Source: Strigops habroptila
Lineage: Eukaryota > Chordata > Aves > Psittaciformes > Psittacidae
Length of the DNA stretch: 64,000 nucleotides
Direction: 5' to 3'
Assembly: GCF_004027225.2 (NCBI RefSeq)
Contig: NC_044301.2
Location: forward strand, 20,296,150 to 20,360,149
Shown: in pieces, positions 13,740 to 59,658 of the stretch
Layout: each line of letters starts with the position of its first letter
Position numbering within the stretch: position 1 is the stretch's first letter
Translations under genes and position numbers: made by a program
Notes under the pieces: generated by a model
What the model was told of the DNA's origin: nothing
Databases searched by the model: none
The model's input: the letters and a program-made list of their open reading frames with translations, nothing else

Positions 13740-16700
13740 TTATGATCCAAAATGGGTTGTTATGATTCTTTTATCTGAGAAGAAGCTTTTGAGGAGAAAT
13801 ACCTGTCCAATACTAATTACAAGAAGAATGATTGCTTCCCCTATTGACCAATAGGTGACTCTTGTGTTTAAATCCTCTGCTCTGCTGCGGCCTTGTGCTT
13901 CTCTCAACCGGAAATGAGTCTGATAATCAATGACAGACTTTAAAGCTTCATGAATTGAAACACATGCAGACTCCATCTAGAGAAGCAAAAAAATAGCTCA
14001 GTTAAAAAACCCTTCTAATGCTTGTTCTGTGAAGTTTTATGGCTTGATATTTAGAAATAGGATTCACATAGCTTTACAGATGAAAGATTATCTCAGTCCA
14101 CTGTCAGACTGAAATACTATAAATCAAACGTATTAATCATAGAATAGTTAGGGTTGGAAAGGACCTTAAGATCATCTAGTTCCAACCCCCCTGCCATGGG
14201 CAGGGACACCTTGCACTAAAACATGTCACTCAAGGCTCTGTCCAACCTGGCCTTGAACACCACCAGGGATGGAGCATTCACCACTTCCTTGGGCAACCCA
14301 TTCCAGTGACTCACCACCCTCACTGTAAAGAACTTCTTCCTTATACCTAATCTAAACTTCCCCTGTTTAAATTTGAAGCCATTACCCCTCGTCCTACCAC
14401 TACAGTCCCTAATGAAAAGTCCCTCCCCAGCATCCTTATAGGCCCCCTTCAGATACTGGAAGGCTGCTATGAGGTCTCCACGCAGCCTTCTCTTCTCCAG
14501 GCTGAACAGCCCCGATGTTCTCAGCCTGTCTCCACACAGGAGGTGCTCCAGCCCCCTTATCATCCTCGTGGCCCTCCTCTGGACTTGCTCCAACAGCTCC
14601 ATGTCCTTTTTATGTTGAGGACACCAGAACTGTACACAATACTCCAAGTGGGGTCTCACGAGAGCAGAGTAGAGGGGCAGGATCACCTCCTTCGACCTGC
14701 TGGTCACGCTTCTTTTGATGCAGCACAGGATACGGTTGGCAAAATAAGAAATTATAACTGAATTTGCAGTAAGTCACCTACTCGCTACAAATCTTCAGCC
14801 ACTGCAAACTTACATGGAGCAAATTCAAGTGAGCAAGATGGTATTTGGGAAGTGGCATTGTGTTCAAACTAGTAAAACAGTGGTCATGTCCAAGATTTTA
14901 AAATGGTTGTTTAAATTGAAGTTTGGTAACAGTACACTATAGTGTAGGAATGTGTCCTGGGTTCAGTTGTAACAGTTTTCTCCCTTTTTGTAGCTGGTGC
15001 AGTGCTGTGTTTTTGACTTTAGTCTGACAACAATGCTGATAACACACCAGTGTTTTAGTTGTTGTTAAGTAATGCTTACCCCGATGAAGAACTTTTCAGT
15101 CTCATGCTCTGCCAGTGAGGAGGGGCACGGGAACCCATGAAGAAGCAGAGACAGGACACCTGACCCCAATAGCCAAAGGGGTATTCCATACCACAGCACG
15201 TCATGCCCAGTATAGAAACCGGGGGGAGTTACCCGGAAGGCCCAGATCACTGCTCGGGTCGAGCTGGGTATCGGTCGGCAGGTGGTGATTAATTGTATTG
15301 GGCATCACTTGTGTTTATTGGTTTTTTCCCTTTCCTCTTTTAGTTTTATATTCTCTCCCCTTGTTATTTCCCTTATCATTATTATTATTGGTGGTAGCAG
15401 TAGTAGTTTTGTATTATACCTTAGTTATTGGATTGTTCTTATCTCAACCCGTGGGAGTTACATTCTTTCGATTCTCCTCCCCATCCCTCCGGGTGCAGGG
15501 AGAGAAGAAGTGGGGGAGTGAGCAAGAGGTTGCATGGTTCTGAGTTACCAGCTGGGCTTAAACCATGACAGAATGTTAGTGAGAATTCGTGGTTTCTGTT
15601 CCAGGTTAAGTTGGCTGATTTAGTTTGGGCAGAAGTGGTGTATTACTAAAATTCTGAAGAAAGAAGGGAACGTTAGGAAAATAATTCTCGAGTAAGAATA
15701 CTGCTTTGCCACTTAAGTTTCTTATGACATATCTAGAAACCAGTTAAGTATGACTGATTTTGTTGTGGTTTTTTTTTTTATTTCGCTAGAATTCTTTTCC
15801 CAGTTACATAAGAGATAAACCATTCAAGTCTTCCCCTCTGAAGAAGGCTCTAAATTATTTTAATATAACAACAAATTGTTCTCAAAGCTTCTCCAAAGTG
15901 CAGGAACTTGAAAACCCTGATCCATTGATATTTTACACTTTATAAAATCCATACTTCCACAGATATAGAACCATGACATTAAAAAGTTCCCTTAAACTCT
16001 AGGCCACTGTATATTTTCCCTAATTTCCACGTAAATAGTTAGTAATTCCTCATGAATTTTATAAACATACCCTCCGCCTAACAGTTGCTGTCAAACACGA
16101 CAATATTTTACCTGAGTAAGTGCTGTTGCTCTGTTCTCACTAGGAAACAGTGGTGGATCTTCTCCAACCTGGAAATCAAAGTACACAGTTTTGTGTGTGA
16201 AAGTAGAGAACTCATTGCTGAAGCAGAATTTGTATGTTCCATTTCTAGATGCAATAAATGTGAAACTATCATATTGTTTCTTCATCTCTTTGTATAATAC
16301 TGCACCATCAGGACCTTCCAACTGACAGTCAACATCATAATGACCTCCAGTGATCACCTGAAAACAACAAGAAATTGTCTTGAGCAAAACAGACATCCAA
16401 CTAGCATTGCAAATTGTTTGATCTAACAAATGTTTTAAAATGAAATGCATTAATTTAAAAATCTTTCAATACAAATTTGCAAAAATCCTCATCTTATGGA
16501 AGACTCACAGAACAATTCAAAATACATATCCTCAATTTAAAAGATCTTAATGTCAACTATGACTTCTAACAGTTTACGAAGAAAGTTTTAGTTACTTCAT
16601 TTTAAGATACTGGTACTATAACAAAGGTTAGACTAGATGAAATTTGATGGGGCAAAGACATTACTTTAATAAATCAGTAATTTACTATATCCGTAAGCCC

Positions 16701-57800: not shown

Positions 57801-59658
57801 CACTCCACAGTGATGCCCCCTTTCCTGCTTTGTGCTGGCAAGCTTGTGGATTCAGCTGGAGGGAAAAAGCTTTGATGTACTTCATGCCTCACCAGAGCAC
57901 TGTTTATTTTGAATGCCCTGTGATGCTTTCTTTACTGTCAGGTTATATGCATTCATTGTTTTCTGTAAAAGGTAAAGCTTCTAACTTGGAGTATTTGTCA
58001 TTAATAAGACTCGAAGAGCTCATAGGCTTATTACTGCATTTGCCTAATGGTGTGTATGCATCCATCCCTCCCTTCTCCTCACCATAATGAGGTTCTTGTA
58101 CATTCATCCATCTGTGACTGGATTTATTTGTCCTCTCTGGGAAGGTGGTGAGTGTCTTTCCATGTGTATGAAAACGGGTAAATCTCAACAGAGTTGGAGA
58201 GAAGAAAAGTCACATGTCTCAAACAGTGTTGTTCCTTGCTGTGTTTTAAACAGTTGTAGGGCTGAACACGTTTTCTGTAGGCATACAGGGGTCTAACAGA
58301 ACTGTGTTTCCACAGGTCACTGTACCTGGGGCATGAACTGTCGATTTATTCACCCTGGTGTGAATGACAAAGGAAACTACTCCTTGATCTCCAAGCCTGA
58401 GCCCTTTTCCCCAAATGGTGCTCCTCCCATTGGCCCTCACCCACTGATGCCGGCCAACCCTTGGGTATGGATATCTGTTCTGTGGATTTATGGCTTCTGC
58501 ACATAGCTTTTGTCTCCTGTTCTGAGAGAAGTGAAGATGGTTTGGGTTTTTTAGTACTTTAGCAACATTAGTCACTATCCAATTCATTACTTGGATATGT
58601 GATATTTTAAAGGGTGGTCTTGTAGTTGCTAGTAGAGGGGAATAATTTTCCTTGTGTGTCTCAGCTTATGTCCTGCTGATATATCTCCAGAGTGTCTGGA
58701 GGTACTCTGGGGTAACAAAGCATGAGTTTGTTACTTAAAACTAATGTCAAGTGTCCGTCTCCTTCCTCTTCTCACCTTTCCAACAGGGAGGGCCAGTCGT
58801 TGATGAAATCTTACCTCCGCCTCCTCCAGACCCTCCAACAGAAAGTGCCTGGGAGAGAGGACTCCGGCATGCTAAAGAGGTAAGCGCCATCCTCAGGAAG
58901 CATGCTGATGTCTCCAAAATCCGGTGGCCTGTTTCACTGGGAGCAGGGAGCTCTCTTTGGAGCATGTAGTGTCTTGCTCTTTCTGAGCAACCTTCCTTTT
59001 GCCTTTTAACCTATTAACTGTGTCTTGTTGTATATCACAGTTGTTGCACAGTCAAGAGGAGCTGATGCCCAGGTTTGGTTTTTTGTTTTGTTTTGGGTTG
59101 GGTTTTTTGGTTTTTTGGTTTTATATTAACATGAGCTAGGGGGAGTTTGTGGCCCTGAAGTCAAGCCCTCCACAAAGCAAACCTTTCTAACCTGATCCAA
59201 TTTCCCTTATTTCAGTACCTGTTTCTCTAGCACGTATTGGATCCACATGTCTGATCATTGTAGAAAATGGGGTTAGCATGTGTGAAACTTATTGCCTGTC
59301 TGCTGTTGTTCTGAGCTGATGGAATAGTTCTACTTTGTACATCAAGGAAAGTCCAGTGTCCTGTGCATTCATGAGACCTGGGCAAAAGAAGGGTGTTTTA
59401 GTTGAAGGGCAGGTTTCTCCCAAGTGAAGGATTTTTAAGACTGCAGTTTCTCTGGGTCTTGGAAATGTTCTCTCTTTACAATGTTTTTATATTATGGCAG
59501 GTATTAAAAAAGGCAACTATGAGAAAAGAACAGGAGCCTGACTTTGAGGAAAAGAGGTTCACTGTGACTATTGGAGAAGACGAGCGTGAATTTGACAAAG
59601 AAAACGAGTTCTTCCGCGACTGGAATTACTGCATCACCAGAGACATCAGAGATCCAGC
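51838..59658 (+). CDS. ZC3H18: ZC3H18, CCCH zinc-finger RNA-surveillance adaptor (exons 2-6, partial)
   Basis: Coding exons, all with AG/GT borders, are 51838-52425 (exon from 51822), 55559-55643, 58316-58464, 58787-58879 and 59501-59658. They encode the first 357 residues; the rest lies beyond the window. The start is the ATG at 51838 (MDVSDSS), 16 nt after a good acceptor. Residues 1-210 are acidic and low-complexity ([28 protein letters not shown]). A single CCCH finger spans Cys219, Cys227, Cys233 and His237 (C-x7-C-x5-C-x3-H). Next come a Pro-rich segment ([13 protein letters not shown]) and the charged [23 protein letters not shown] segment. In mammals this nuclear protein (NHN1) bridges the cap-binding complex/ARS2 and the NEXT-exosome pathway. 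All five exons are open. The final codon is split (2 nt) at 59658. No further exon was seen up to 64000. Confidence 0.93.
52426..55558 (+). other. ZC3H18 intron 2
   Basis: Unique sequence apart from a 25-bp minisatellite at 53588-53662 and small homopolymer runs. A small possible exon-like stretch at 53205-53240 (after TTGCAG) is not supported. Confidence 0.6.
53588..53662 (+). repeat. 25-bp tandem repeat, three copies
   Basis: Three identical copies of a 25-bp unit starting GCTGAAGAGACC and ending CCTCCCTTTTC, followed by a partial ACTGAAGAG. The perfect identity indicates recent expansion. Confidence 0.95.
55644..58315 (+). other. ZC3H18 intron 3
   Basis: Contains a minus-strand CR1 at 55871-56360. 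The rest is unique sequence without recognised features. Confidence 0.6.
55871..56360 (-). mobile_element. CR1 LINE 3' end in ZC3H18 intron 3
   Basis: Minus-strand CR1: the tail side AATCATAGAATGG is followed by the diagnostic 3' UTR/ORF2 end (CCAACCTGGCCTTGAACACTG, GGGAAGAACTTCT). It is more diverged than the CR1 copies at 2007 and 14137. Confidence 0.92.

Follow-up and report, generated by a model that had tools for sequence, protein, structure and literature searches.

In the ancestor of parrots, chromosome 11 joined the Z and the W at their differentiated end, giving rise to stratum S4, and the parrot W is rich in long terminal repeat (LTR) elements (PMC8854603). The text of that study considered here (Huang et al. 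2022) reports neither gene order on the W nor mixing of its strata. In the great reed warbler, the added part of the neo-Z has kept its order, whereas that of the neo-W is heavily rearranged (Sigeman et al. 2021, PMC8662655). Peona et al. (2021, PMC8310711) have moreover described the avian W, rich in endogenous retroviruses (ERVs), as a refugium for these elements; bStrHab1.2.pri, an assembly of the kakapo, was among their data. Here we analyse 64,000 nucleotides of the kakapo (Strigops habroptila) genome (contig NC_044301.2, positions 20,296,150 to 20,360,149 of the forward strand; hereafter the window), in which TMED7 lies beside ZC3H18 across a nest of retroelements. The 37.4-Mb contig that holds the window (C25 below) is best read as the parrot W, because of its gametologs, size, assembly rank and ERV density, and a 101.9-Mb contig (C26) as its Z; an earlier, sequence-only reading had already suggested a W-linked copy of a parrot, and these features point the same way. 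We consider it highly likely that the window is a piece of the W at which an old stratum was joined to chromosome 11-derived S4 by a rearrangement within the W, after the fusion.

TMED7 and ZC3H18 are divergently arranged neighbours, as the sequence-only reading had described them. Three and five coding exons, respectively, are visible, and the Z copies of the two genes lie 38.8 Mb apart on C26 (41.66 vs 2.86 Mb). The TMED7 exons join into an open frame of 217 residues with a stop, and the exon-2 frame scores as EMP24_GP25L in Pfam. Its single close second copy is that on C26 at 41.66 Mb (89% at the amino-acid level over exon 2, with exons 1-2 at 41.654-41.660 Mb), while further, weaker matches occur on contigs C9 and C11 (66% and 47%). 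ZC3H18, which we name by its similarity to the human protein, likewise has a single close second copy, at C26 2.862-2.863 Mb (88% at the amino-acid level); its exon borders were read off by eye, and its exon frame at 51796-52506 gave no match in Pfam. It is reasonable to describe the visible parts of both genes as intact, as was done earlier; those of ZC3H18 cover human residues 1-361 only.

The two sides of the window are unequally diverged from the Z. Beside ZC3H18, blocks at 47198-54088 and 36052-39424 give Kimura two-parameter (K2P) distances from C26 of 0.115 and 0.113, the larger being collinear over 6.9 kb, and all S4 blocks, including two smaller ones, give 0.123. With gaps counted, noncoding identity to C26 on this side is 84-86%, similar to the Z-W value of about 86% reported for the chromosome 11-derived S4 of parrots (PMC8854603). 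TMED7 aligns to the Z in pieces only, with a pooled K2P of 0.237 that is probably an underestimate and that omits pieces shorter than 140 columns as well as a repeat match at 14.1-14.5 kb; CR1-like matches between the window and the Z at 14.1-14.7 kb were discarded as family paralogy. In coding sequence, synonymous divergence (dS) is 0.172 and nonsynonymous divergence (dN) 0.053 for ZC3H18 exon 2 (212 codons, of which the final 16 extend past the splice donor), and 0.45-0.51 and 0.034-0.069, respectively, for TMED7 exons 1-2, the dN suggesting that TMED7 is under constraint. By both K2P and dS the sides thus differ in stratum age: the TMED7 side is the older stratum, and the ZC3H18 side is like S4. 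These divergences, together with the positions on C26, uphold the earlier assignment of TMED7 to the old Z and of ZC3H18 to chromosome 11. TMED7 and FEM1C are reportedly W-linked in canary and Z-linked in chicken (PMC4373106).

The chromosome 11-derived DNA is itself broken at this site. Homology of the ZC3H18 side to the Z stops at window 34333 (C26:2,874,101), within a repeat of high copy number, by our reading CR1. A little further along the Z, C26:2,874,660-2,877,159 matches C25:16,521,027-16,523,014 at 80-86% on the plus strand (among the best 40 of 6532 candidates); sequence that is unbroken on C26 is split on C25 between Z 2,874,101 and 2,875,032. The two break sides lie 3,809,454 bases apart on C25 (20.330 vs 16.521 Mb) and in reversed relative orientation, the Z running backwards along C25 on the ZC3H18 side and forwards at 16.521 Mb. 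Because the sides are reversed, an inversion ended at the window site if the Z order is taken as ancestral.

The sequence-only reading had proposed that the window might hold the original fusion point of chromosome 11 with the W or Z. One gene is indeed of old-Z and the other of chromosome 11 origin, the fusion that it mentioned for the parrot ancestor is published (PMC8854603), and fusion to the W may have been an event separate from fusion to the Z, so that its site need not match that on the Z. However, at a fusion point the autosome is expected to be broken at its very end, while the break found here is 2.87 Mb inside the chromosome 11-derived part, counted from its Z end, with both sides kept on C25. 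A fusion shared with the Z should have left the same adjacency there, against which stands the distance between the two Z copies; if the Z has only one boundary between old and added DNA, GOT2 (21.05 Mb) and FEM1C (37.05 Mb) bracket it, and TMED7 is farther out.

Marker order along C25 bears on the same question, since a single fusion would leave one switch between old and chromosome 11-derived sequence. Fifteen markers were labelled by chicken synteny and place on C26 (VCP by synteny only); those derived from chromosome 11 all lie in the first 21.1 Mb of C26, whereas none of the old markers that could be placed there lies before 37 Mb. With positions on C25 in Mb, and those on C26 in brackets, the order is VCP 0.55 (no Z match), ATP5A1 3.16 (98.16), SPIN1 4.16 (56.30), GPI 8.97 (11.5), the DNA at 16.52 (2.88), GOLPH3 17.09 (90.3), KCMF1 17.77 (50.5), GOT2 18.71 (21.05), FEM1C 20.24 (37.05), TMED7 20.31 (41.66), ZC3H18 20.35 (2.86), PSMD7 21.55 (1.99), HNRNPK 27.56 (60.4), VPS35 29.54 (0.50) and SMAD2 30.2 (98.97). 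Old and chromosome 11-derived markers switch in eight of the 14 neighbouring pairs, where shuffled orders average 7.2 switches and show one or none in 0.05% of cases (0.0005). The eight switches argue against a fusion point, which, with the internal break and the distant Z copies, we regard as a most improbable account of this locus. The expectation that the window would be the sole boundary between old and chromosome 11-derived W sequence on C25 also failed, as two marker panels interleave old and new. The count omits SLC7A5 and the matches to SLC7-family paralogs; with all four of these places included as chromosome 11-derived, a hand count still gives eight switches.

Candidates scored were the best 26 of 81 in the chromosome 11 panel, 31 of 124 in the old panel and 80 of 155 in a further panel. 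Absences in the first two panels mean little: CYBA, GINS2 and a ZC3H18 exon had no match in the first panel, and in the second TICAM2 and CDO1 had none and VCP had none on the Z. Matches to SLC7A5 of 38-57% at C25:7719233-7731537, 4982084-4983276 and 25275938-25276357 belong to the SLC7 family and are probably further chromosome 11-derived gametologs; similar matches lie on C26 at 12.5, 12.7 and 19.5 Mb.

A rearrangement within the W would have proceeded in two steps: chromosome 11 would first have joined the sex chromosomes, and an inversion with one end at the window site would later have brought FEM1C/TMED7 DNA beside ZC3H18 DNA. SLC7A5, ZC3H18 and PSMD7, which flank the segment concerned, lie at 16.40, 20.35 and 21.55 Mb on C25 and at 3.36, 2.86 and 1.99 Mb on C26, all flipped, as would follow from an inversion of C25:16.521-20.330 Mb inside a larger block that is itself flipped. 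Several observations weigh against so simple an account. VPS35, at 29.54 Mb, is unflipped, and the flipped block is therefore not unbroken that far; the 930 bp of Z sequence between the break edges were found on neither side on C25; CDO1, predicted at the partner break, had no W match (best 80 of 155 candidates); and the marker closest to that break on its left, SLC7A5, is 118 kb off and itself derived from chromosome 11. Insertion of an old W block into the chromosome 11-derived part, with an adjacent smaller inversion in place of a single one of 3.81 Mb, fits about as well. It would accommodate SLC7A5 to the left of the break, as well as the presence of old GOLPH3 and KCMF1 and of chromosome 11-derived GOT2 inside C25:16.5-20.3 Mb, three genes from which it follows that mixing preceded or accompanied the inversion. 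Yet such an insertion must use the same site twice, and the reversed sides still require an inversion ending here, so that we judge it unlikely, though deserving of serious weight.

At the window itself, the rightmost old-stratum homology to the Z is at 19225, and the stretch aligned to neither Z copy (19226-34332, 15.1 kb, mostly LTR elements) agrees well with the 18.7-35.3 kb in which the breakpoint had been thought to hide. The join of old and new probably lies in a provirus of 9.5 kb, here named ERV B, which begins and finishes with canonical LTR ends and whose LTRs are 86% alike. A CR1-like fragment and another element, ERV D, flank it on the left and the interior of a third, ERV C, on the right (both names coined here); ERV C ends exactly at chromosome 11-derived DNA. 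The five-base flanks of ERV B differ (TGGTT vs CTTGT), while the solo LTR in TMED7 intron 2 retains GAATG on both sides and a solo LTR at 44960 retains four of five bases. Because its flanks come from two elements and lack a matching target-site duplication, we infer that ERV B may be a recombinant of an insertion in old surroundings with another in chromosome 11-derived ones. Two related proviruses would in that case have recombined ectopically to produce the break. More tentatively still, and with somewhat less than even confidence, we propose that ectopic recombination between ERVs on the non-recombining W may have re-sorted its strata into the present alternation of old and added DNA, the window holding one such recombinant provirus. 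If true, the W would not only shelter ERVs but also be scrambled by them.

This proposal has its difficulties. The divergence between the LTRs of ERV B also fits plain age. The left flank of ERV B matches, at 65.5% over 200 bp, the DNA before another copy of ERV C, which qualifies the contrast between the flanks: it makes the flanking ERVs distantly related, and a single, badly decayed ERV spanning the site is a less probable alternative. The 300 bp left of the partner break (C25:16520727-16521026) are an LTR-like piece and not the predicted reciprocal provirus; part of the 322-bp insert in the right LTR of ERV B also occurs beside that break. A single ERV C spanning the gap, with ERV B inserted into it, was considered and rejected: the left flank has its close copies (90-94%) in a different ERV family, at places separate from the listed copies of ERV C (best 40 of 439 candidates for ERV C, best 40 of 148 for the left flank), though the 65.5% match points the opposite way. 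Among the best 40 of 439 candidates, an ERV C query matched 97 rows, 85 of them on C25 with the query counted in, which fits the view of the W as a refuge for ERVs (PMC8310711).

That the join falls within this nest, that copies of its ERVs are scattered over C25 and that the DNA right of the window reads N might also suggest an assembly misjoin of two W contigs inside ERV repeats. The window, however, contains no N, leaving the retroelement join free of gaps, and most of the ERV and LTR copies that were compared are at least several percent apart, although one 241-bp pair is 98% alike. W scaffolds that mix old and added sequence are, moreover, described for the great reed warbler, with independent linked-read support for three out of four (PMC8662655). 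A misjoin seems improbable to us, and rearrangement within the W the better account. The features of the window are collected in Table 1.

Table 1. Features of the 64,000-nucleotide kakapo window, in window coordinates.
Feature	Position	Strand	Remarks
TMED7 W gametolog	13740..18276	-	3 coding exons, open frame; Pfam EMP24_GP25L
TMED7 coding exons	exon 1 18276-18106, exon 2 16357-16112, exon 3 13976-13740	-	
Solo LTR, TMED7 intron 2	14953..15570	+	flanks GAATG/GAATG
Solo LTR, TMED7 intron 1	17033..17650	-	absent from Z copy; Z alignment runs unbroken across site
TMED7 first exon and 5' flank	18103..19225	-	Z-alignable pieces 18103-18343 (72%), 19038-19225 (65%)
ERV D fragment	21872..22672	+	left neighbour of junction provirus
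CR1-like LINE (long interspersed nuclear element) fragment	22682..22767	+	cut exactly at left LTR of ERV B; CR1 presumed from a reverse-transcriptase motif
Junction provirus ERV B	22768..32310	-	LTRs 22768-23343 and 31414-31851 plus 32174-32310
Internally deleted ERV within ERV B	23613..25995 (right end approximate)	+	
322-bp LTR-like insert in right LTR of ERV B	31852..32173	+	
ERV C, 3' part	32311..34332	+	LTR about 33723-34332
Chromosome 11-derived (S4-like) DNA	34333..54088	+	follows Z order C26:2874101 down to 2861018
W-only insertion, 7.8 kb, rich in ERV matches	39425-47197		upstream of ZC3H18 start codon
ZC3H18 W gametolog	51838..59658	+	five coding exons visible; gene continues beyond window
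ZC3H18 coding exons	51838-52425, 55559-55643, 58316-58464, 58787-about 58878, 59501-59658	+	

Within the chromosome 11-derived stretch, alignment to the Z is weak and repeat-rich at about 35.2-36.0 kb, and the W-only insertion sits between a GC-rich stretch (34-36 kb) and the first ZC3H18 coding exon. LTR and ERV sequence starts at 61463, 3' of the visible ZC3H18 exons, and from exactly the window end the 120 kb right of base 64000 read N. For the exon that follows in ZC3H18, C26 gave a match at 2.852 Mb, whereas C25 gave nothing at E <= 1e-4 (51/51 candidates scored). The same holds for GALNS and MVD, found near ZC3H18 on the Z (C26:2711040-2717920 and C26:2810034-2810666) with no match on C25 at that threshold (51/51 candidates scored); they are either lost from the W or within the N stretch.

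On the other side, C25 carries a seemingly whole FEM1C coding sequence in two exons (20235340-20235885 and 20251137-20252444), which ends 57 kb left of TMED7 and covers human residues 1-617 with no stop in the aligned parts. On C26, FEM1C lies 4.6 Mb from TMED7, and CDO1 (41.61 Mb) adjoins the latter. W and Z would thus each retain part of the linkage that these genes show on the human map. Rfam returned nothing for the window at gathering thresholds, and, as the sequence-only reading had also remarked for the interval between the genes, no TTAGGG array is present among the seven tandem-repeat rows of the window. Outside the window, (TTAGGG)4 units are repeated on C1 (122.32-122.52 Mb) and C2 (18.87-18.90 Mb); among the matches listed, the distance between them is frequently a multiple of about 186 bases, which might reflect a satellite with a telomere-like motif.

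The kakapo neo-W thus appears to have been shuffled after the fusion, so that its strata would not be contiguous blocks. A breakpoint read at the sequence level could be sought in kea, cockatoos and macaws, and bears on whether shuffling preceded or followed the stop of recombination on chromosome 11, and on whether retroviruses did the cutting. Among the papers listed by the literature searches, we recognised none that describes the TMED7/ZC3H18 adjacency or parrot W order. The crested ibis offers a likeness in scale, a 3-Mb inversion between added Z and added W, but at the edge of a new pseudoautosomal region, whereas the kakapo site lies in the differentiated W, between old and added DNA (PMC10891136). 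The account of the W as an ERV refugium does not, in the text considered, treat ERVs as breakpoints of W rearrangement (PMC8310711). A close parallel is the great reed warbler, in which four W scaffolds hold ancestral and added sequence, mixed as here, though in another order of birds and with chromosome 4A, not 11, as the addition (PMC8662655). A shuffled neo-W is thus known from that species; the kakapo is a new case, which differs in that one boundary between old and new is read at the sequence level, with its other end 3.8 Mb away.

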